NCBI GenBank assembly: GCA_949298535.1
Contig: CASFXA010000130.1
Span: 1-36,955, forward strand
DNA length: 36,955 nucleotides
Direction of reading: 5' to 3'
Source: an uncultured Oscillospiraceae bacterium
Lineage (GTDB): Bacteria; Bacillota; Clostridia; Oscillospirales; Ruminococcaceae
Shown here piece after piece: positions 335-29,788 of the stretch. The number at the start of each line of letters is the position of its first letter. Positions within the stretch are counted from its first letter, which is position 1. The notes beneath the pieces are model-generated. The model was given only the letters and a program-made list of their open reading frames with translations, did no database searches and was not told the origin of the DNA. Position numbers and translations under genes: made by a program.

Positions 335-584
335 GTTTTCAATCACCTCCTGAGGTTGGTGCAATACCATGTTATGCCGCAGGAGAGAAAACGGAGACGC
401 AGGCAAAAAATTCCCCCTGTCATAGCCGTGGAAAAGAGCGCATTTGGGTCATCTATCCCCTTTCTTTTCTTCTTTTTGTGTTTGCAGGAAAGGAAAAAAA
501 TTTTTTCTCCCCATGCCCTTTTCCCCGGATTATTACTATATTTAATTTTTTATCATAAATATACTGATAGTATTATTTAGGCGT

Positions 585-7029: not shown

Positions 7030-7847
7030 GTAAACTGATAAAATACGAATTTAAATCCACAGCACGGATTTTTATTCCCCTGTATGTGGTGCTGCTGGTA
7101 TTCTCCCTGGTGGGAAGGCTTTCTTTGAGCAAAATGATGGACGGCGCTCCCATCAATCCCTCCTTCATCGCCTTTTACGACTTGTTGGTGGGCGTGGTGA
7201 TGGTGGGCTATGTGCTGGTCATCTTCAGCGTCATTATCATCGGTCTGGTGGTCATCGTCCAGCGATTTTACAAAAATCTCACTGGTCGGGAAGGTTATCT
7301 GATGCACACCTTGCCAGTGCCCACCCATCACCTTATCCTTTCCAAATTGCTGGTGGCCGCCTCCTGGCAGCTGGTGGGCTGGGTGATGATGTTCCTGTCA
7401 GTCATGCTGGTGGTCTATCAGGGAGAGACCGCCCGCTCCCTTCAGGAGTTCTTTCAGGAGGCGAGCAACCCCATCGTCTTCGTTTTCCGGGAACTGGGAG
7501 TGGATCCCACCGGGTTTTCTCTGATGATGGCGCTTTCCATGGTGATCTCCGCCTTTGACGGACCGCTGATGATCTATGCCGCCATCGCTTTGGGGCAGCT
7601 GTTTAAGAAGCATCGGATTGTGGGAGCTGTTGGCGCTTATATCGCCCTGGCCATGATTGCCAACACCATCTCCAGCGCCCTGACCACCGGTTTCAATCTC
7701 ACCGGAACCAACCTGTCCTCCTCCGAGGAAATGGGATTTTTCCTCAACGGCATCATGCTCCTCTCCCTGGTGCTCCAGCTGCTGATGAGCATCGGCTATT
7801 TCTTCCTGACCAATTACATCCTCTCCAGCCACCTGAACCTGGAATAA
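7023..7847 (+). CDS. ABC transporter permease
   Basis: The protein has 274 residues and about six hydrophobic segments: residues 15-35, 50-80 (DLLVGVVMVGYVLVIFSVII), 105-135, 175-200, 205-230 and 245-268. The second loop contains a polar stretch (YKNLTGREGYLMHTLPVPTH) often seen in ABC-2 type permeases of this group. It overlaps the ATPase gene and is the last gene of the gntR operon. Beyond it, a GC-rich stretch (TGCCC...GGGCA, about 7852-7871) could act as a weak terminator before the valS promoter. It is probably the membrane half of a homodimeric exporter with the upstream ATPase. Confidence 0.88.
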   Translation: MLSKLIKYEFKSTARIFIPLYVVLLVFSLVGRLSLSKMMDGAPINPSFIAFYDLLVGVVMVGYVLVIFSVIIIGLVVIVQRFYKNLTGREGYLMHTLPVPTHHLILSKLLVAASWQLVGWVMMFLSVMLVVYQGETARSLQEFFQEASNPIVFVFRELGVDPTGFSLMMALSMVISAFDGPLMIYAAIALGQLFKKHRIVGAVGAYIALAMIANTISSALTTGFNLTGTNLSSSEEMGFFLNGIMLLSLVLQLLMSIGYFFLTNYILSSHLNLE

Positions 7848-7883
7848 AGTGCCCCGCCCTCCCCGGGCAGCTCCAAGTTTTTC

Positions 7884-7912
7884 TTGACTTTTCCTCCCGG
7901 GCGTGCTATGGT
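7884..7912 (+). promoter_or_regulatory. Promoter of the valS T-box transcript
   Basis: TTGACT (7884-7889), a 17-base spacer and TATGGT (7907-7912) precede the T-box, with transcription expected near 7919. Confidence 0.7.
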
Positions 7913-7918
7913 GTAGGT

Positions 7919-8213
7919 GTAAATTTTCAGGGAAAGACTGTGAAAAGGAGTAGTAAGCAGGCGCACCCATTCCCCAGAGAGCGGCGGGCAGCTGAAAACG
8001 CCGCGTATGGAACCTGCTGAAGTAGCCTTGGAGTCCCGGATCGAAAAAAGCTCTGGCTTTCAGTAGTCCCCGGCGCGGCGGCCCCGCGTTATCAAAGGTC
8101 TGGGAATGATTTTCGTTCCGGCAGAGTGCGTCACCCTTTTGGGCGGCGAACGCAGGTGGTACCGCGTAAAAGAACCTTTTACGTCCTGTCGCGCAAGCGG
8201 CGGGACGTTTTTT
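7919..8213 (+). promoter_or_regulatory. T-box leader (tRNA-Val sensing) with attenuator
   Basis: The leader shows the T-box signs in order. The specifier loop has AGTA on the 5' side (near 7950) and GAA followed by the codon GTA (8022-8024) on the 3' side, inside a stem AGCAGG/CCTGCT. The AGAGA bulge and a GCTGAAA apical loop lie between them. The T-box AACGCAGGTGGTACCGCG (8149-8166) is followed by a terminator hairpin (8181-8208, ACGTCC...GGACGT) and six T. Uncharged tRNA-Val would favour the antiterminator and raise valS expression. GTA, rather than the more common GTC, appears to be the specifier because it directly follows the loop-E GAA. Confidence 0.93.
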
Positions 8214-8270
8214 GTTCCCTGGAAAAACAAAACCACGCGGGCGGAAAGACCCGCTGCAGGAGGTAAAGGA

Positions 8271-10967
8271 ATGGCAAAAGAACTGGCTAAAGTGTATGAT
8301 CCCCAGTCGGTGGAGGATCGTCTCTATGCCTTCTGGCTGGAGAAAAATTATTTCCACGCCGACGTGGACCCCAAAAAGACCCCCTATACCATCGTCATCC
8401 CCCCACCCAACATCACCGGACAGCTGCATATGGGCCACGCTCTGGATGAGACCCTCCAGGACATTCTCATCCGCTGGCGCCGGATGCAGGGCTACTCCGC
8501 CCTGTGGCTCCCCGGTACCGATCACGCCTCCATTGCCACCGAGGCCAAGATCGTCAGCGCCATGAAGGAGGAAGGGCTGACCAAGGAGGACCTGGGACGG
8601 GAAAAATTCCTGGAGCGGGCCTGGGCCTGGAAGGAAAAGTACGGCGGACGCATTGTGGAACAGCTGAAAAAGCTGGGCTCCTCCTGCGACTGGGAACGGG
8701 AGCGGTTCACCCTGGACGAGGGATGCAGCAAGGCGGTCAACGAGGTGTTCTGCCGCCTGTATGAAAAGGGACTGATCTACCGGGGCAACCGAATGGTCAA
8801 CTGGTGTCCCCACTGCAATACCTCCATTTCCGATGCTGAGGTGGAGTATCAGCCCCAGGACGGTCATTTCTGGCATCTGCTCTATCCCGTCAAGGAAACC
8901 GGCGAAATGCTGGAGCTGGCCACCACCCGCCCCGAGACCATGCTGGGCGATACCGCCGTGGCCATCAACGGCGCGGATCCCCGGTACGCTCATCTCCATG
9001 GCTGCCATGTGATCCTGCCGCTGCTGAACAAGGAGATCCCCATTGTCTGCGACGATCACGCCGACATGGAGAAGGGCACCGGCGTGGTGAAGATCACCCC
9101 CGCCCACGACCCCAACGACTATGAAGTGGGCAAACGCCATGATCTGCCCATCGTCCGGGTATTCACCTATGACGGCCATATGACCGGCGCTGCCGACAAG
9201 GCCGCAGCCGACGAGCTGTTTGCCAGTGGCCGTGCCGCCGCCGGAGAGCCGGAGGTGCTGGACTGCGGCAAATACGCCGGCATGACCACCATGGAAGCCC
9301 GGAAGGCCATCCTGGAGGATCTGGAGGCCGGCGGCTTCCTGAAATCCGTGGAGCCCCTCCAGCACGAGGTGGGCACCTGCTACCGCTGCCACAACACCGT
9401 GGAGCCTATGGTTTCCAAGCAGTGGTTCGTGCGGATGGAGCCCCTGGCCGCTCCCGCCATTGAGGCGGTCCGCTCCGGCCAGACCAAATTTGTCCCTGAG
9501 CGCTTTGACAAAACCTACTATCACTGGATGGAGAACATCAAGGACTGGTGCATCAGCCGTCAGCTGTGGTGGGGCCACCGCATCCCCGCCTACTACTGCG
9601 CCGACTGCGGCGAGATGGTGGTCTCCCGGGAGGAGGTTCACACCTGTCCCAAGTGCGGCGGCGTCATGACCCAGGACGAGGATACCCTGGACACCTGGTT
9701 CAGCTCCGCCCTGTGGCCTTTCTCCACCCTGGGCTGGCCGGACAAAACCCCGGAGCTGGATTACTTCTATCCCACCAATACCCTGGTCACCGGCTATGAC
9801 ATCATCTTCTTCTGGGTTGCCCGGATGATCTTCTCCGGCTGCGAGCAGATGGGGCAGACCCCCTTTGACACCGTCCTCATCCACGGACTGGTACGGGACG
9901 CTCAGGGCCGGAAGATGAGCAAATCCCTGGGCAACGGCATCGATCCCCTTCAGATCATCGATCAGTACGGCGCCGACACCCTCCGCTTTACCCTTGCCAC
10001 CGGCAACAGCCCCGGCAACGACATGCGCTTCTCCGACGACAAGGTGAAAGCCAGCCGGAACTTCGCCAACAAGATCTGGAACGCCAGCCGCTTCATTCTG
10101 ATGAACCTCTCCGATGAGATCACCTGCTGCCGTCTGCCGGAAAAGCTGGAGACTGAGGACAAGTGGGTGGTCAGCCTCTACAACACCCTGGTAAAGGAAG
10201 TGACCGACAATCTGGAGAAGTTTGAGCTGGGCATCGCGGTGCAGAAGCTGTATGACTTCATCTGGGATATTCTCTGCGACTGGTATATCGAGCTGACCAA
10301 GTCCCGCCTCCAGGCCGGGGGAGCGACCGCTCTGGCGGCTCAGCAGGTGCTGGTGTATGTCACCGCCAACACCCTCAAGCTGCTCCATCCCTTCATGCCC
10401 TTCATCACCGAGGAGATCTGGCAGAGCCTGCCCCATGAGGGTGAGGGAGAGAGCATCATGGTCTCCCAGTGGCCCACCTACAGCGAGGAGCTGACCTTTG
10501 TCAAGGAGGAAGCGGACTTCCAGAAGGTGATGGACATCATCAAGGCCATCCGCAACCAGCGCGCCGAGATGAACATCCCCCCCAGCAAAAAGGCCAAGGT
10601 GTGCATCGAGACCGCCGAGCCCAAGGTCTTTGAGGATGGCGCTCCCTTCATCATGCGCCTGGCTTCCGCCTCCCAGGTGGAGGTGGGCGGGCCCTTCTCC
10701 CCTGAGGGAGCGGTGCAGATCATCACCTCCGCCGCCCGGGCCTTCATTCCCATGTCCGACCTCATTGACCGGGAGAAGGAGCTGGCCCGGTTGGAAAAGG
10801 AGCGGGCAAAATGCCAGAGCGATATTGATTTTGTCCTGAAAAAGCTGGATAATCCCGGCTTTGTGGCCAAGGCTCCCGCCCAGGTGGTGGAAGCGGAAAA
10901 GACCCGCCTCCAAACCCAGAAGGACCGCCTGGAAAAGATCCTGGAGAGCATCAAAGCCCTGGGCTGA
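8271..10967 (+). CDS. valS: Valyl-tRNA synthetase
   Basis: The protein has 898 residues and is a full-length class I synthetase that charges tRNA-Val. The HIGH motif is HMGH (53-56) after PPPNITG. The KMSKS motif is intact at 548-552 (GRKMSKSLGNGIDPL). The editing domain (about 190-340) contains TTRPETMLGDTAVAIN, and zinc-ribbon-like cysteines occur around 440-465 (YYCADCGE, CPKCGG). The last 70 residues form the usual coiled-coil arm (DREKELARLEKERAKCQ). The ATG at 8271 is fixed by AGGAGGT 6 bases upstream; the frame is open further up, but that part lies inside the T-box. Expression is controlled by the T-box, and the transcript ends at the hairpin at 10996. Confidence 0.97.
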   Translation: MAKELAKVYDPQSVEDRLYAFWLEKNYFHADVDPKKTPYTIVIPPPNITGQLHMGHALDETLQDILIRWRRMQGYSALWLPGTDHASIATEAKIVSAMKEEGLTKEDLGREKFLERAWAWKEKYGGRIVEQLKKLGSSCDWERERFTLDEGCSKAVNEVFCRLYEKGLIYRGNRMVNWCPHCNTSISDAEVEYQPQDGHFWHLLYPVKETGEMLELATTRPETMLGDTAVAINGADPRYAHLHGCHVILPLLNKEIPIVCDDHADMEKGTGVVKITPAHDPNDYEVGKRHDLPIVRVFTYDGHMTGAADKAAADELFASGRAAAGEPEVLDCGKYAGMTTMEARKAILEDLEAGGFLKSVEPLQHEVGTCYRCHNTVEPMVSKQWFVRMEPLAAPAIEAVRSGQTKFVPERFDKTYYHWMENIKDWCISRQLWWGHRIPAYYCADCGEMVVSREEVHTCPKCGGVMTQDEDTLDTWFSSALWPFSTLGWPDKTPELDYFYPTNTLVTGYDIIFFWVARMIFSGCEQMGQTPFDTVLIHGLVRDAQGRKMSKSLGNGIDPLQIIDQYGADTLRFTLATGNSPGNDMRFSDDKVKASRNFANKIWNASRFILMNLSDEITCCRLPEKLETEDKWVVSLYNTLVKEVTDNLEKFELGIAVQKLYDFIWDILCDWYIELTKSRLQAGGATALAAQQVLVYVTANTLKLLHPFMPFITEEIWQSLPHEGEGESIMVSQWPTYSEELTFVKEEADFQKVMDIIKAIRNQRAEMNIPPSKKAKVCIETAEPKVFEDGAPFIMRLASASQVEVGGPFSPEGAVQIITSAARAFIPMSDLIDREKELARLEKERAKCQSDIDFVLKKLDNPGFVAKAPAQVVEAEKTRLQTQKDRLEKILESIKALG

Positions 10968-23767: not shown

Positions 23768-24439
23768 TCACAGCATCCGGCTGCGCAGATATTGCAGCAG
23801 CTTCTTTTCCCTGCGGGAAACCTGCACCTGGGTCATCCCCAGCCGTTTGGCTGTTTCCGTCTGGGTCATGGAGGAAAAATACCGCAGGCGGATCAGCTCC
23901 TGATCCCGGGGCTCCAGTTCGGCCAACAGCTGTTGCAACGTCAGCAAATCTGAAACCCGTTCCTCCGGCGACTCGGTGGGCAGGTCCATCTGGCCGCCTC
24001 CCTCCTCCTGTTCTGTCAGGGAAATGGGCGGGGTGGTGGCCGCGATGGCCTGGGCGATCTCCTCCGGAGACCTGTCCATAGCGCTGGCCACCTGGGAAAG
24101 GGTGGGCTCCTGCCCCATCATTCCGCTCAACCTCTCCTGGCACCGCAGCGCCTTGATTCCCAGTTCCTTCATGCTGCGGCTGACCTTGACGGTCCCTCCG
24201 TCCCGGAACAGACGGCGGATCTCTCCCAGGATCACCGGCACCGCGTAGGTGGAAAACATCACCCCCCGCTGGCAGTCAAAGGCGTCAATCGCCTTCACCA
24301 GCCCGACGCATCCCGCCTGAAACAGGTCGTCATATTCGATTCCCCGTCCCTTGAAACGGTGGGCGCAGGCGTGTACCAGCCCCAGATTCTGCTCCGCCAG
24401 TTCCCGGCGTTCCAATACCGGGGCCGTTTGTGCCGCCAT
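23768..24439 (-). CDS. sigF: Forespore sigma factor SigF (SpoIIAC)
   Basis: The protein has 223 residues and is a sigma-70 family factor of the B/F/G group. Region 2 (about 15-85) reads NLGLVHACAHRFKGRGIEYDDL and onward, and FSTYAVPVILGEIRRLFRDG is the hallmark of SigF/SigG. Region 3 covers about 90-135. Region 4 (about 165-220) includes LRYFSSMTQTETAKRLGMTQ, then VSRREKKLL. The place as third gene after spoIIAA and spoIIAB identifies it as SigF, the first compartment-specific factor of the forespore, held inactive by SpoIIAB. The gap to spoIIAB is 30 bases, with GGGGGGA before the ATG. Confidence 0.95.
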   Translation of the reverse strand: MAAQTAPVLERRELAEQNLGLVHACAHRFKGRGIEYDDLFQAGCVGLVKAIDAFDCQRGVMFSTYAVPVILGEIRRLFRDGGTVKVSRSMKELGIKALRCQERLSGMMGQEPTLSQVASAMDRSPEEIAQAIAATTPPISLTEQEEGGGQMDLPTESPEERVSDLLTLQQLLAELEPRDQELIRLRYFSSMTQTETAKRLGMTQVQVSRREKKLLQYLRSRML

Positions 24440-24469
24440 TGCCTTCCCCCCTTTTCATCCCTTGGCTTA

Positions 24470-24907
24470 TCAGGCGCCCCGAAGAGACAATTTTTTGTCC
24501 AGGGTAACGGTGGTTCCCTTCCCGACGGTGGACCTTACATGGACGCGGTCCATCATCTCCTCCATCACGGCAAACCCCAATCCCGCCCGCTCTCCCGTTT
24601 GGCAGGTGGTATACAGCGGCTCCATCGCTTGTTTGATATTGGGAATACCGCAGCCCTTGTCCTGAACCTTGATCCGCAGCAATCCTCCGGGATAAAGGGA
24701 TACCGTTATGTACACCATTCCCAGCGTGTCCCGGTATCCATGTACAATCGCATTGGTCACCGCCTCTGAAACCGCCATTTTGATGTCGCACAATTCTTCC
24801 ACGGTAGGGTCTACGGTGGAAGCGAAGGACGCCACCACCGAACGGGCAAATCCTTCATTCACCGACCTGCTGGGAAACATCGCTTTGACACTGTTGATCG
24901 CTTTCAT
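24470..24907 (-). CDS. spoIIAB: Anti-sigma-F factor SpoIIAB (serine kinase)
   Basis: The protein has 145 residues and is a GHKL-fold ATPase. The N box is MAVSEAVTNAIVHGY (E48 and N52 for catalysis and Mg), G1 is VQDKGCGIPNIKQA, and G2 is ERAGLGFAVMEEMMD. It binds and inhibits SigF and phosphorylates SpoIIAA. The start overlaps the spoIIAA stop (ATGA), giving coupled synthesis of partners. Confidence 0.96.
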   Translation of the reverse strand: MKAINSVKAMFPSRSVNEGFARSVVASFASTVDPTVEELCDIKMAVSEAVTNAIVHGYRDTLGMVYITVSLYPGGLLRIKVQDKGCGIPNIKQAMEPLYTTCQTGERAGLGFAVMEEMMDRVHVRSTVGKGTTVTLDKKLSLRGA

Positions 24908-25227
24908 TCTTCCTCACCTCCCCGCAGCTGGATGGGCAAACTTTCAATTCCGGCCACCCGCATCACCTTTCGCAGGTGCCGGGGGAGACCTGTGACAATC
25001 AGCTGTCCCCCCAATTCCTCCATCATCCGGTATCTGCCCAGCACCAGGCCGATCCCGGAGGAATCCATAAACTCCACCCGTGAGAAATCCAGCACCAATC
25101 GCCGGGGTCTGCACTGCTGGGTGCGGCTGTCGATCTCCTCCCGCAGCTGCTGCGCTGCGTGATGGTCGATCTCCCCGGAAAGACGCGCTGTCAACTGCTC
25201 GTCCTCTACTGTCATTTTGACTGCCAT
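24904..25227 (-). CDS. spoIIAA: Anti-anti-sigma factor SpoIIAA
   Basis: The protein has 107 residues and is a single STAS domain. The phosphorylation loop is VEFMDSSGIGLVLGRY, with S57 corresponding to B. subtilis S58. When dephosphorylated it displaces SigF from SpoIIAB. The ATG at 25227 follows AAAGGA by about 10 bases and gives the normal N-terminus; the frame further up overlaps a terminator. In B. subtilis this operon is driven by sigma-H. No clear sigma-H promoter (AGGANNT and GAAT) is visible in the 50 bases between the terminator and this start. Confidence 0.93.
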   Translation of the reverse strand: MAVKMTVEDEQLTARLSGEIDHHAAQQLREEIDSRTQQCRPRRLVLDFSRVEFMDSSGIGLVLGRYRMMEELGGQLIVTGLPRHLRKVMRVAGIESLPIQLRGGEEE

Positions 25228-25275
25228 CGCTTCGTCGTCCTTTCTTTGGGCAGGAACTAAACCTGTAAAAATTGC

Positions 25276-25323
25276 AAAAAAGCCGGTCCCCCGTCCCTTT
25301 TTCAAGGATAACGGAGGACCGGC
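25276..25323 (-). terminator. Terminator between the glycosyltransferase gene and spoIIA
   Basis: A 13-bp stem with one mismatch (25323-25311 with 25294-25282, GCCGGTCC.../...GGACCGGC) is followed on the minus strand by TTTTTT. It lies about 135 bases after the glycosyltransferase stop and 50 bases before spoIIAA. Its position so close to spoIIAA also allows it to act as an attenuator for that operon. Confidence 0.8.
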
Positions 25324-25458: not shown

Positions 25459-26781
25459 CTACAGCATCTGACGGATCTGCTTTTGGATTTTTTCGTTGAC
25501 CGCGTCATAGGTTTCCGCTTCCTGCTGCGACAACCCGGAGCGCATCGCCAAACGATATTCCAGCATCACCTCATCCAGGTCCCTCAGCAGCGGATCGGCC
25601 TGGGAAGAAAAGACGATCCGCAGGGGCTTTGGACTTCCTTTTCCGACGGGGCCTGTCTCAGAAGCAACTGTCAGCCAGCCCTTGGATTCCAGCTTTTGCA
25701 GCAGCATCCAACAGCTGCTTCGGGACAGCTGAACGAAATCCGCCAGCTCCTTTCTGGTGATCTCCCCTGCTATCTGCCGCAGATAAAGCATCAGCCGCGC
25801 TTCCGGCAGTGTCAGGCTGTGCTTGAGCGCCACTGTTTCCAGATACCGCTCCAGCAGCTTCCGGCAGCGAAAATCATCAAAGAGAGGCCCTTGTCCCGCC
25901 AGAGTGTTGGCGCTGATCTGTAACCGTTCCGTTCCCAGCCGGACAGAACCGGGTAAAATTCCCGGCGGCACCACACCGTCTCCGGCGGCGTCCACCAAAA
26001 AGCGATAGATCTTCAGCCTGCTTTTTTCATAGGCATCCTCATCCAGCACCGTTCGGTAAAACTGATTGTAGTATTCAAACACCGCCAGCTTCATCCGCAC
26101 GGTTTTGGAGAGGGCAAAGTTCTGGGATACCAAAGAACCCTTGGTTTTGACATAGTAATAAATGGGAACCTGTACGGCAATAAACCGCTGCGCCAGGCGA
26201 ATATATTCCAGATTGAACATAAAGTCTTCACACCAGCTGATGGCCGGATCCATCCGCAGGCCATGCTCCTCCACAATCTGACGCCGGTACAGCTTGTTCC
26301 ACAGCACACCGTAATAATAGTCACCGGGATTTTCCATCATACAGGCTGCAAATTCTTCCCTGGTCATCACGCCGGTCTCATCAATATCCCCTTTATGGGA
26401 GACCCGTTCCCCCACCACACGGTAAAAATCCGCGATCACCAAATCGCACTGGTTCTCCCGGGCCGCCCGCAGCAGGGTGGCGGTTGCGTCAGGGGTGATC
26501 CAGTCGTCGCTGTCCACAAATTGGAGGTATTCCCCCCTGGCCTGGGCCAAAGCCAAATTTCTGGCGGCAGAAACTCCGGAATTCTGCTGGTGAAAGACCC
26601 GGATACGGGGATCCCTCTCCCCATAGCTGTCGCAGAGGGACCCTGACCCATCACTGCTGCCGTCATCCATCAGCAGCAGTTCAAAATCCCGGCAGGTTTG
26701 CTTTAAGATGCTGTCAACACAGCGGGCAATGGTTTTTTCCGCATTGTACACAGGAACAATGATACTCACCAAGGGTTTCAT
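25459..26781 (-). CDS. Family 2 glycosyltransferase fused to a MarR-like winged helix
   Basis: The protein has 440 residues and two unrelated parts. Residues 3-210 are a GT-A glycosyltransferase of family GT2: SIIVPVYNAEKTIARCVDSI, MDDGSSDGS (D39, D40), NSGVSAARNLAL, and the metal-binding FVDSDDW (90-94), then a WCED-type segment. Residues 323-440 match the MarR fold: LTLPEARLMLYLRQIAG, recognition region RKELADFVQLSRSSCWMLLQ, KLESKGWLT, a wing GKGSPKPLRIVFS, and a C-terminal dimerisation helix pair (DPLLRDLDEVMLEYRL, GLSQQEAETYDAVNEKI). No membrane helix is seen. The frame is continuous with one ribosome binding site (GGGAG before the ATG at 26781), so this is not two genes. It lies 60 bases after the MATE gene in the same direction. 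Which sugar it transfers, and whether the C-terminal domain binds DNA, is unknown. Confidence 0.85.
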   Translation of the reverse strand: MKPLVSIIVPVYNAEKTIARCVDSILKQTCRDFELLLMDDGSSDGSGSLCDSYGERDPRIRVFHQQNSGVSAARNLALAQARGEYLQFVDSDDWITPDATATLLRAARENQCDLVIADFYRVVGERVSHKGDIDETGVMTREEFAACMMENPGDYYYGVLWNKLYRRQIVEEHGLRMDPAISWCEDFMFNLEYIRLAQRFIAVQVPIYYYVKTKGSLVSQNFALSKTVRMKLAVFEYYNQFYRTVLDEDAYEKSRLKIYRFLVDAAGDGVVPPGILPGSVRLGTERLQISANTLAGQGPLFDDFRCRKLLERYLETVALKHSLTLPEARLMLYLRQIAGEITRKELADFVQLSRSSCWMLLQKLESKGWLTVASETGPVGKGSPKPLRIVFSSQADPLLRDLDEVMLEYRLAMRSGLSQQEAETYDAVNEKIQKQIRQML

Positions 26782-26841
26782 AGAATCTCTCCCATGAATG
26801 TTTATTTTTTTCACCAACAGTCACATTGGTGATCTCTGTTT

Positions 26842-28215
26842 TCACTCTTGACCCTGCAGCTGTTCCTGACGGGTCAGCTCCCGCCACACCAGATGCAGCA
26901 TGGTAAAGAAGCAGGCGACGCCGCCGATAAAATTGGAAATCGGCTCCGCCAAAAAGACGCCGTTGGTGCCTAAACCGGGAATCATCGGCAGCAACACGGT
27001 GAGGGGAGCCACAATGATGACCTTGCGCAGCATGGAGAAGAAGATCGCCTGACGGGATTTTCCCAGGGCCACAAAGACGCTTTGTCCTATCATTTGCAGA
27101 GCCATCATGAAAAATCCAAAGAAATAGATCCGCATCGCCGGCACCGCCGCCTCCACCAGCTGAGGCTCATGGTTGAACAACTGAATAAAAAACACCGGGA
27201 ACAGGTGAACCGCCGCCCAGGCAGTGACAGTGTACGCGATGGTGGCAAAGGAAAGAAAACGGATCGCTTCCTTGACCCGACCATATTTTTCCGCCCCATA
27301 GTTAAATCCCATCACCGGCTGGGCGCTGTTGGTCAGGCCGGTGATCGGAAGATGGATCACTTCCCGCACCGAGTTGATAATGGTCATAACCCCCACATAC
27401 AGATCCCCGCCGGTGGACTGGAGGGTGGCATTGCAGAGGATCTGCACCAGGCTGTTGGTCACCGACATCATGAAACCAGCGGTGCCCAGGGTGACAATCC
27501 GCCGCACCCGGCTCAGCTTCAGCGCCATGGCGGACAGCCGCAGCCGAAGGATGGCCCGGGGGCCGGTGAGAAAGCACAGAATCCAGATGGTGGAGAGCAT
27601 CTGGGAGAGAACCGTTGCGATAGCCGCCCCCCGAACTCCCATATCCAGCACGAAGATGAAAATGGGGTCCAAAATAATATTGGCTACCGCTCCCACCACC
27701 ACCGTCACCATTCCCACACGGCCAAAGCCCTGGGAATTGACAAAGCTGTTCATCCCCAGGCCAGTCATGACAAACAGCGTCCCCAGCAGGTAAATGGTCA
27801 GATACTCGTTGGCATAGGGATAGGTCACGTCGCTGGCGCCGAAAAGGTAGAGCATTGGCTTTTTAAACAGATAGCAGAAGGCCATCAGACCTCCGCCGGT
27901 GAGCATCATCAGGGCGAAAGAGTTGCCCATAATGGCCTCCGCCTCCTCCAGCGCCCCCTGACCCCGGGCGATGGAACACAGCGGCGCGCCTCCCATTCCA
28001 TACAGGTTGGCAAAGGCGATCACCATGGTGATAATGGGCAAACAAAGCCCCAGACCCGTCAGCGCCAAAGTGGCGTTTTCCGGGATCCGCCCGATGTACA
28101 TTCTGTCCACAACGTTATACAGCACATTGACCAGCTGAGCCAGAGTCATGGGGATCGCCAAACGGACAATATTGGCCACCACGCTGCCCTGGGAAAAATC
28201 GTTCTTTTGTTCCAA
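26842..28215 (-). CDS. MATE family efflux transporter
   Basis: The protein has 457 residues and twelve predicted membrane helices in two halves. The N-terminus IVRLAIPMTLAQLVNVLYNV, then DRMYIGRIPENATLALTGLG, is typical of the NorM/DinF-like MATE family. MATE proteins export drugs or metabolites using sodium or proton gradients. The start is TTG at 28215, with AGAGGA 6 bases upstream and no usable ATG. The following gene, in the same orientation with a 60-base gap, is the GT2-MarR fusion, so they probably share a transcript. The glycosyltransferase neighbour allows a substrate made or modified by that enzyme, but nothing in the sequence proves it. Confidence 0.92.
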   Translation of the reverse strand: MEQKNDFSQGSVVANIVRLAIPMTLAQLVNVLYNVVDRMYIGRIPENATLALTGLGLCLPIITMVIAFANLYGMGGAPLCSIARGQGALEEAEAIMGNSFALMMLTGGGLMAFCYLFKKPMLYLFGASDVTYPYANEYLTIYLLGTLFVMTGLGMNSFVNSQGFGRVGMVTVVVGAVANIILDPIFIFVLDMGVRGAAIATVLSQMLSTIWILCFLTGPRAILRLRLSAMALKLSRVRRIVTLGTAGFMMSVTNSLVQILCNATLQSTGGDLYVGVMTIINSVREVIHLPITGLTNSAQPVMGFNYGAEKYGRVKEAIRFLSFATIAYTVTAWAAVHLFPVFFIQLFNHEPQLVEAAVPAMRIYFFGFFMMALQMIGQSVFVALGKSRQAIFFSMLRKVIIVAPLTVLLPMIPGLGTNGVFLAEPISNFIGGVACFFTMLHLVWRELTRQEQLQGQE

Positions 28216-28480: not shown

Positions 28481-29788
28481 TCAGGATCCTGTTTTGGAGA
28501 GGGACACCTCCGATCCCTCCCCCGATAAACCTGCGCCGAACAGGATGGTCTGCTGCCCTTCGGTGATCCACAGTCCTCTCCGGCTTCCGGAGCCCTCCGC
28601 TGTATACCAGCAGATGGTATAACCCGGTTGGCTGTCCCGGACAAAAACGTAAATGGCGGGCTGTTCGCCTGCCGCCAGATAAACCAGTTCCCCCGGTTGG
28701 GTCTGGCTCACCCACTGCTCCGCTATTTCCAGATTCACAGTCTCGCCCGTGGTTTCGGTCACATAACCATGGGAACGGGCCTGCGCTTCAAATTCCTCCG
28801 GCTTGGCCAGCAGCGCCTCCGCCTGCTGAGAATCCATCTCCTGGGAAGCCGCGGGGAGAACCGGTTTCCCCTCCTCGTTGGCAGGGACCAATCCCTGTCC
28901 GCCGCCGCCGGTGCCGGTGGTGAGAATCTCATATTGCCCATTTCCCCGAGAGACAATCCGGAATTCCGTGTAGCAATCCTCCCACTGGATCACACCGTTT
29001 TCCAGCTGCTGACTGAAACCATTGGCGCTGAGATGAGCTATACTGTAGCTTTGGTACGCCAAACGGGCAGAGACGCAGAATTCACTGGCGTCCCCCGCCA
29101 CCAGGGTCACCTGGTCCACCTGGCAATCGTCCATCTGATACCAGGTGACCACATCCTCTCCGGTGTAACTTTCCATCCAGTGGCGGATTCCCGCTTCACC
29201 GATCGCCGTCAGCTCCCCTGCCGGGGCATGGAACAAATCCCGGTCCACCGCAAAGCGTTGGGCCGACTGCCTGGCCTCCTCCACCATGCGGCGGAAGTTA
29301 TCAATGTCCTCCAGGGGGAAAAGGCGAAAATCGTCTCCGCCCCAAATATCGCTGACCAGGAAATAGTCCTCCCCCTCCTGCAGCAGCAGAATCTGATAGC
29401 TGAAGCCGTCCATCCGGTCTCCATAGATCCAAACCTCCTGGCTGGCCTGGGCAAGGCGTTCCAACTGCGCCTGGTCCGTGACCTCCTGCCCCAGCACCAA
29501 GGCAGACAGCTCCTCCTGACACTGTTCCAGCTGCCAGATGTCGTAGGTGGCAAAGGAATCCCGCTGGGTGTAAAAGCGAAAATCCGCCGTTTGAAGCAGC
29601 TGATCCTCCGGCAGGGCGTTCGCCGCCACCAGCAGCGGAATCTCCTCCGTCCGCTCCGGGAGATTTTCCTCCAAAGCGAGCGATTCCGCCTCTTTTTCCG
29701 AAGACTCTGACCGGGAACCGCTGCAGCCGACAAAAAGAACCGCCGCCAGGGCAGCGGCGAGCCCCATGAGCAAAATCCTGTTCCTCAT
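28481..29788 (-). CDS. Unknown lipoprotein
   Basis: The protein has 435 residues. A lipoprotein signal peptide is clear: positive MRNR, a hydrophobic stretch LLMGLAAALAAVL, and the lipobox FVGC with C22 as the lipidated cysteine, then a serine/glutamate-rich linker. The mature part is acidic and glutamine-rich, with two segments that look alike in size (about 50-200 and 205-430), but I recognise no domain. It is exported and should be anchored outside the cell membrane. Its start overlaps the folC stop by 4 bases, so it is translationally coupled as the last gene of a five-gene operon, an unusual partner for a folate enzyme. Confidence 0.8.
   Translation of the reverse strand: MRNRILLMGLAAALAAVLFVGCSGSRSESSEKEAESLALEENLPERTEEIPLLVAANALPEDQLLQTADFRFYTQRDSFATYDIWQLEQCQEELSALVLGQEVTDQAQLERLAQASQEVWIYGDRMDGFSYQILLLQEGEDYFLVSDIWGGDDFRLFPLEDIDNFRRMVEEARQSAQRFAVDRDLFHAPAGELTAIGEAGIRHWMESYTGEDVVTWYQMDDCQVDQVTLVAGDASEFCVSARLAYQSYSIAHLSANGFSQQLENGVIQWEDCYTEFRIVSRGNGQYEILTTGTGGGGQGLVPANEEGKPVLPAASQEMDSQQAEALLAKPEEFEAQARSHGYVTETTGETVNLEIAEQWVSQTQPGELVYLAAGEQPAIYVFVRDSQPGYTICWYTAEGSGSRRGLWITEGQQTILFGAGLSGEGSEVSLSKTGS

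Follow-up and report, generated by a model that had tools for sequence, protein, structure and literature searches.

Why should a glycosyltransferase carry the fold of a transcription regulator at its end? The question is raised by the window analysed here, a stretch of 36,955 nucleotides from an uncultured Oscillospiraceae bacterium (contig CASFXA010000130.1 of assembly GCA_949298535.1), in which one gene joins a family 2 glycosyltransferase (GT2) to a MarR-type winged helix and follows a gene for a MATE exporter. A sequence-only reading of this locus had offered two explanations: a self-regulating unit in which a sensor domain controls the export and glycosylation of a compound, and a glycosyltransferase in which the MarR fold serves only for dimerisation. 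We find a family of such fusions in Clostridia, with intact glycosyltransferase residues and a MarR fold whose wing has drifted. We favour, with a probability of about 0.5, an orphan GT2 enzyme whose MarR fold would mainly assemble it and may hold a polyanionic acceptor.

The GT2-MarR architecture is a single protein encoded by one intact open reading frame (ORF), with GGGAG just upstream of the ATG as the likely ribosome-binding site. The assembled sequence (180 contigs, 86% complete) contains no internal stop in the 440 residues and no frameshift between the two parts, both of which are matched by Pfam or by structure. The architecture also recurs in relatives. A pattern-seeded scan of genome contigs found 251 of them, and the best 80 by score were kept, a selection to which their full-length coverage is partly due. 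All 80 carry both parts at 53-75% identity to the window protein, aligning from query residue 1-3 to 438-440, and their hosts are by record title Oscillospiraceae, Lachnospiraceae and other Clostridia. The sequence-only reading knew of no characterised protein with this combination, and a search of open-licence literature likewise found no description of a GT2-MarR fusion among the papers listed. Gut Clostridia thus have a conserved family of enzymes whose pairing of domains is described in none of those papers.

The N-terminal part is predicted to be a sugar-transfer enzyme with its catalytic residues intact. PF00535 matches residues 6-173 with 131 bits (cut-off 23) and is matched at an E-value of 1e-3 by all 81 aligned fusion proteins, that is, the window protein and its 80 relatives. 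The DD and DSDD motifs, read as intact from the sequence, are unchanged throughout: D40, D90, D92 and D93 are invariant in 81/81, together with E185 and D186 of the ED motif, and so are W161-N162-K163. A full-length model reached moderate confidence (predicted local distance difference test, pLDDT, 80; predicted template modelling score 0.59), and its Foldseek list is headed by GalT1/CgT, TarS, TarP and RmlT at 17-28% identity. Residues 266-288 of this model fall below a pLDDT of 50, and the mutual placement of the two domains is not fixed by it.

The C-terminal part is, by its predicted structure, a complete MarR fold. The MarR_2 family covers residues 322-374 at 24.2 bits, under its cut-off of 27, and at 27.8 bits, above it, in the genome scan; it was found in 51 of the 81 fusion-family members at an E-value of 1e-3. 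HTH_24 exceeds its cut-off on residues 338-370. A profile built from the 81 C-terminal domains (A2) retrieved SlyA from the PDB at 3e-9, and the 57 PDB matches listed are all MarR/SlyA-type or other winged helix-turn-helix regulators. Modelled alone with AlphaFold2, the domain reached a pLDDT of 90 with the element order a1-a2-a3-a4-b-b-a5-a6, and the 50 Foldseek matches listed for it are all MarR-type, headed by DNA-bound SlyA. The winged helix seen in the sequence-only reading, with its wing, is thus borne out, and the putative dimerisation helices, here a1, a5 and a6, are present by fold in the predicted structure.

We compared this domain with two sets of stand-alone MarR proteins. The first contains 30 sequences, one from the source genome (P0003) and 29 relatives fetched from the 63 matches listed; the second contains the 18 nearest stand-alone relatives of the fused domain, taken from 28 stand-alone matches. 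Several of the 81 fused rows are near-identical; conservation was compared element by element after a 50% identity filter, which left 18 fused and 15 control sequences. Relative to the whole domain, conservation in fused versus control proteins was 1.57 versus 0.84 for a1, 1.14 versus 0.78 for a2 and 0.56 versus 1.33 for the wing. The wing is therefore the least conserved element of the fused domains and the most conserved one in stand-alone MarRs. Within a1, residues R305, R307, K308, Y313, E315 and K320 are 91-100% conserved in the fused family.

The drift of the wing affects residues with a known role. In the description of DNA-bound SCO3205 in PMC3737563, the wing residue Arg98 enters the minor groove and is held by Asp96, while Arg72, Ser73 and His77 of the recognition helix contact bases. 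The aligned acid of this wing D-x-R motif is D or N in all 30 and all 18 control proteins and in only 2 of 78 fused ones, a column made uncertain by the variable wing length (12 to 49 residues in fused proteins, 17 to 18 in controls). The stricter pattern [DN][RKEG][RK] occurs in the wing of 12/81 fused proteins and of 27/30 in the first control set. By these counts the fused family departs from the MarR wing D-x-R with its minor-groove arginine, though position 385 stays basic. The regulator half thus appears, from its sequence, to lack part of the usual DNA-reading signature while keeping the fold. Another marker of lost DNA reading was considered and dropped. Position 359 is K or R in 0/81 fused proteins and in 30/30 of the first control set, which initially seemed decisive; the 18 nearest stand-alone MarRs carry V, Q, K, T and others there. 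Because the position is variable in these relatives too, the case rests on the wing instead.

Several observations weigh against a domain that has given up DNA for a structural role. Besides the uncertain wing-acid column, D-x-[RK] occurs somewhere in the wing of 28/81 fused proteins (controls 30/30 and 15/18), and the minor-groove position 385 is K or R in 70 of 80. Basic, potentially phosphate-contacting residues are kept, namely R343 (77/81), K344 (72/81), R354 (65/81), K/R363 (80/81) and K/R367 (79/81). Conservation exceeds that of controls in helix a3 (1.53 versus 0.94) and is only mildly lower in the recognition helix a4 (1.11 versus 1.29), and a5 (0.86 versus 0.86) and a6 (0.79 versus 0.75) do not rise above controls. 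The mean net charge of residues 338-392 is +5.0 in fused proteins and +1.6 in controls (+3 in the window protein); over the whole domain, however, the fused proteins are not more basic (+0.7 versus +1.5). Given the conserved basic residues of a3 and a4 and the positive charge of residues 338-392, non-specific or polyanion binding and lineage-specific operators are both possible.

We nevertheless favour a structural role, because the drift of the wing contrasts with strong conservation in a1 and in parts of the junction. The fusion belongs to a GT2 family of gut Clostridia with a C-terminal MarR domain, most simply of single origin. As an enzyme it would work without partners, either cytosolic or at the membrane. 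Like TarS, TarP, RmlT and GalT1, its neighbours by fold, it would take a sugar from a nucleotide-sugar and transfer it to an acceptor, be it a glycopolymer, a protein or a lipid-linked molecule. The enzyme would be assembled into a dimer by the MarR fold, a role akin to that of the C-terminal trimerisation domain of TarS; in place of an operator, the basic face of this fold may bind the membrane or an acceptor rich in phosphate. The passages of PMC10672168 on enzymes of this type offer parallels for both roles: trimeric TarS exceeds TarS lacking the trimerisation domain 18-fold in processivity, and an electropositive groove of TarP binds ribitol-phosphate. The same passages also count against the analogy, as trimerisation of TarM, unlike that of TarS, has no effect on activity. 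Of the two proposals of the sequence-only reading, the one in which the MarR fold has a structural role is therefore the more likely: the conservation of a1 and of parts of the junction and the drift of the wing agree with it, and a5 and a6, the other dimer helices, lend it no support, being no more conserved than in controls.

The same residues can be read differently. A dual-function protein, in which the glycosyltransferase doubles as a transcription regulator that binds DNA with its MarR domain, at an operator that differs between lineages, is in our view possible but rather unlikely. By analogy, its logic might be comparable to that of Listeria GmaR, a glycosyltransferase and antirepressor, with the DNA-binding domain built in, and GmaR as presented in the relevant part of PMC9638930 is a precedent for a glycosyltransferase with a transcriptional role. 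The complete fold, closest to DNA-bound SlyA and RovA among the Foldseek matches listed, agrees with such a protein, and so do the basic positions kept in a3, in a4 and in the wing, the raised conservation of a3, the charge of residues 338-392 and the fact that Arg is not constant at position 359 even among the nearest stand-alone MarRs. It is opposed by the poor conservation of the wing, with the aligned D-x-R acid absent in 76/78, by the lack of a conserved target neighbour among the 80 loci, and by the search for an operator. This search covered exact inverted repeats of at least 7 bp, and not imperfect ones, within 250 nt upstream of the fusion gene in the window and in the 80 related loci. 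One such repeat stands in front of the window's fusion gene and is not found in the closest relative with the fusion, Angelakisella massiliensis, and by eye the only recurrence among the 81 upstream regions joins two loci (L051 and L060) in which the repeat lies inside the upstream gene. Taken furthest, this reading would yield a single-chain glycosyltransferase and transcription factor with lineage-specific operators, whose substrate or dimer state directly sets the expression of surface-glycan genes, a prospect we regard as doubtful; the conversion of a DNA-binding fold into a dimer that binds glycopolymer for an enzyme of the cell surface comes as a close second. Helix a1 borders the MarR ligand crevice, and its place as the most conserved part of the domain would also suit a sensor enzyme in which a small ligand in the MarR pocket, whether donor sugar, lipid precursor or toxic compound, switches the glycosyltransferase on or off without DNA. 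The conservation of a1 fits packing against the glycosyltransferase or dimerisation equally well, and we consider such a sensor improbable. Finally, the MarR part might be the functionless product of a chance or decaying fusion. It does evolve faster, with a mean pairwise identity per column of 0.44 over residues 299-439 compared with 0.70-0.79 for glycosyltransferase segments. Yet two bacterial families have retained the fold and many residues of a1, and 0 of the 81 aligned proteins is truncated (the 80 relatives having been kept by score, which favours full length), so that decay is hardly credible.

The remaining alternative, a self-regulating unit of MATE pump and GT-MarR protein that senses, exports and glycosylates a compound, depends on the gene context. 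The MATE gene is indeed directly upstream, as the sequence-only reading had it: it ends 60 nt from the start of the fusion on the same strand and exceeds its Pfam and TIGR cut-offs. This arrangement makes co-transcription plausible. The order is the same in A. massiliensis (locus L035), whose MATE protein is 91% identical, and each of the three top-scoring stand-alone relatives of the MarR domain has a MATE gene beside it. Conservation of the pair, however, did not hold up when checked. A MATE profile search of the flanks found a MATE ORF in 4 of the 80 loci (L035, L086, L088 and L114) and an adjacent one only in L035; the upstream flank exceeds 2 kb in 72 of the 80, and the few short loci could hide a MATE. 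Because the source genome holds 15 MATE-like matches, one adjacency in 80 loci is near chance expectation (<1 by a rough hand estimate). Nine relatives of the window MATE in other genomes, 51-69% identical, have no fusion and no MarR within 2.6-5 kb on either side, as judged with a profile of 8 MarRs from the source genome that could miss distant ones; one of these loci (L178) gives a weak match to the full-length fusion profile and none to its MarR part. The lone inverted repeat, absent from A. massiliensis, does not help the circuit either. With the adjacent MATE confined to two Angelakisella species, 0/9 MATE-relative loci bearing a MarR or fusion, and no recurring neighbour, the circuit was rejected as a family feature, and we hold it to be very unlikely at this locus. 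We read the adjacency shared by the window and A. massiliensis as a single arrangement passed on by descent, and the pump is probably a chance or lineage-specific neighbour rather than part of the fusion system. A MarR beside a MATE should not be taken for an exporter circuit before its conservation has been checked.

Gene partners of other kinds were not conserved in the loci covered. The 154 immediate neighbours of the fusion in the 80 loci, called by codon score, fall into 102 clusters of which the largest has 9 members, and in the wider flanks the largest family besides the glycosyltransferase gene and its shadow ORFs occurs in 11/80 loci. Six loci (L084, L097, L098, L101, L103 and L108) place the fusion 9-26 nt after a gene that we take to be mutL-like and before an ORF of 63-66 residues overlapping by 1-4 nt. 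In L114, the last stretch of the GT-MarR gene is overlapped by a separate MarR-like ORF (L114:5507-6010), and a MATE and another MarR-like ORF lie about 1.6-3 kb upstream.

The distribution of the fusion is patchy, since the full fusion occurs in 2 of 391 genomes (source genome included) in an even sample of the class and in 2 of 10 in the genus (source genome again included, some incomplete). A glycosyltransferase-only relative was found at an E-value of 1e-60 in 4 further genomes of the class sample. In a tree of the glycosyltransferase part, built from 41 of the 81 fused rows, 14 glycosyltransferase-only rows and 17 distant rows with long branches (the partial L017 being left out), the 41 fused rows group in a single clade (95/98); adjoining it is a second clade with 13 of the 14 glycosyltransferase-only rows (267-333 residues), outside which L119 falls. 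This topology is most simply explained by a single origin of the fusion. An ancestral glycosyltransferase gene beside a separate MarR gene was considered and rejected: the A2 profile finds no MarR gene near six glycosyltransferase-only sister loci, which indicates that the glycosyltransferase can exist without a MarR. As for the MarR domain, 5 of its 18 nearest stand-alone relatives adjoin a MATE, the three best-scoring among them, 9 of 29 loci in the first control set hold one, and a contig of the source genome (C90) carries a MATE-MarR pair. These associations suggest that the domain may descend from a MATE-associated exporter regulator. Two same-genus genomes (G001 and G003) have a glycosyltransferase-only relative whose immediate upstream neighbour is another MATE, one with about 25% identity to that of the window; the two loci (L126 and L127) belong to the six sister loci above, are near-identical and look orthologous.

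Table 1. Features of the fusion gene and its MATE neighbour, in window coordinates.
Feature	Residues	Position	Strand	Basis or remark
GT2-MarR fusion gene	1-440	25459..26781	-	ATG start at 26781, 440 aa; ORF, Pfam, full-length homologues
GT2 (GT-A) glycosyltransferase part	1-268	25978..26781	-	Pfam, alignment, Foldseek
Junction	269-298	25888..25977	-	Mostly modelled with low confidence; 81/81 have G283 and E285
MarR fold (predicted)	299-440	25462..25887	-	AlphaFold2, profile, Foldseek
MarR helices (predicted)	a1 299-320, a2 325-336, a3 343-349, a4 354-366, a5 393-414, a6 419-439			
Recognition helix a4	354-366	25684..25722	-	Conservation comparisons
Wing	370-391	25609..25674	-	Length and sequence variable in fused family, D-x-R mostly lost
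Wing strands (predicted)	370-374 and 386-391			
7-bp inverted repeat, 8-nt spacer, in MATE-GT gap		26811..26832		Terminator-like on the + strand
MATE exporter gene	1-457	26842..28215	-	457 aa, TTG start; PF01554 and TIGR00797 above cut-off

Other parts of the window were noted in passing. Just downstream of the fusion, positions 23768-25305 of the minus strand encode in a row a STAS-domain protein, an HATPase_c_2 protein and a sigma-70-type factor (Pfam), presumably resembling the spoIIAA-spoIIAB-sigF sporulation operon. A 435-residue ORF at 28481-29788 begins, by eye, with a lipoprotein-like signal and has no Pfam match at 1e-4. The 1171-residue ORF at 7398-10967 on the minus strand, also without a Pfam match at 1e-4, is antisense to a 953-residue valyl-tRNA-synthetase-type gene on the plus strand and is probably a shadow ORF.

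MepA-MepR is a known MATE-MarR pair, and in such pairs a MATE stands beside a MarR-type domain as in the window and on contig C90. Unlike them, the window has a GT-MarR protein as the neighbour, in a pairing found in two species only among the 80 loci and the window. With SlyA, RovA and MepR the C-terminal domain of the fusion has the full fold and both a profile and a structure match in common; it differs from them in being joined to an enzyme and in its unconserved wing with the D-x-R mostly lost. TarS, TarP, RmlT and GalT1/CgT have the GT-A fold and the catalytic pattern in common with the glycosyltransferase part, and none of the four is known to us to contain a MarR fold. TarS, like the fusion, has a separate C-terminal domain, which in TarS serves trimerisation according to the enzyme comparison in PMC10672168. 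GmaR of Listeria is also a glycosyltransferase polypeptide, and its sequence match to the fusion is limited to residues 1-106 of the glycosyltransferase part. The domain description in PMC9638930 gives it TPR, linker and antirepressor domains and an action on MogR, and a Pfam search of the 440-residue fusion found no TPR or antirepressor match. The recognition elements of ribosomally synthesized and post-translationally modified peptides (RREs) fused to PF00535 glycosyltransferases also combine a winged helix with a GT2 and, in the part of PMC12710340 that deals with them, bind substrate rather than DNA. We rejected an RRE identity for the domain, as the RRE order given there is bbb-aaa and the modelled order aaaa-bb-aa is that of MarR. 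GmaR and the RRE-PF00535 fusions are thus precedents in part, neither having this architecture. The GT2-MarR family offers a clean test of whether a fold that binds DNA can be redeployed for enzyme assembly or for holding a glycan acceptor, or whether an enzyme of surface glycans can double as a regulator.

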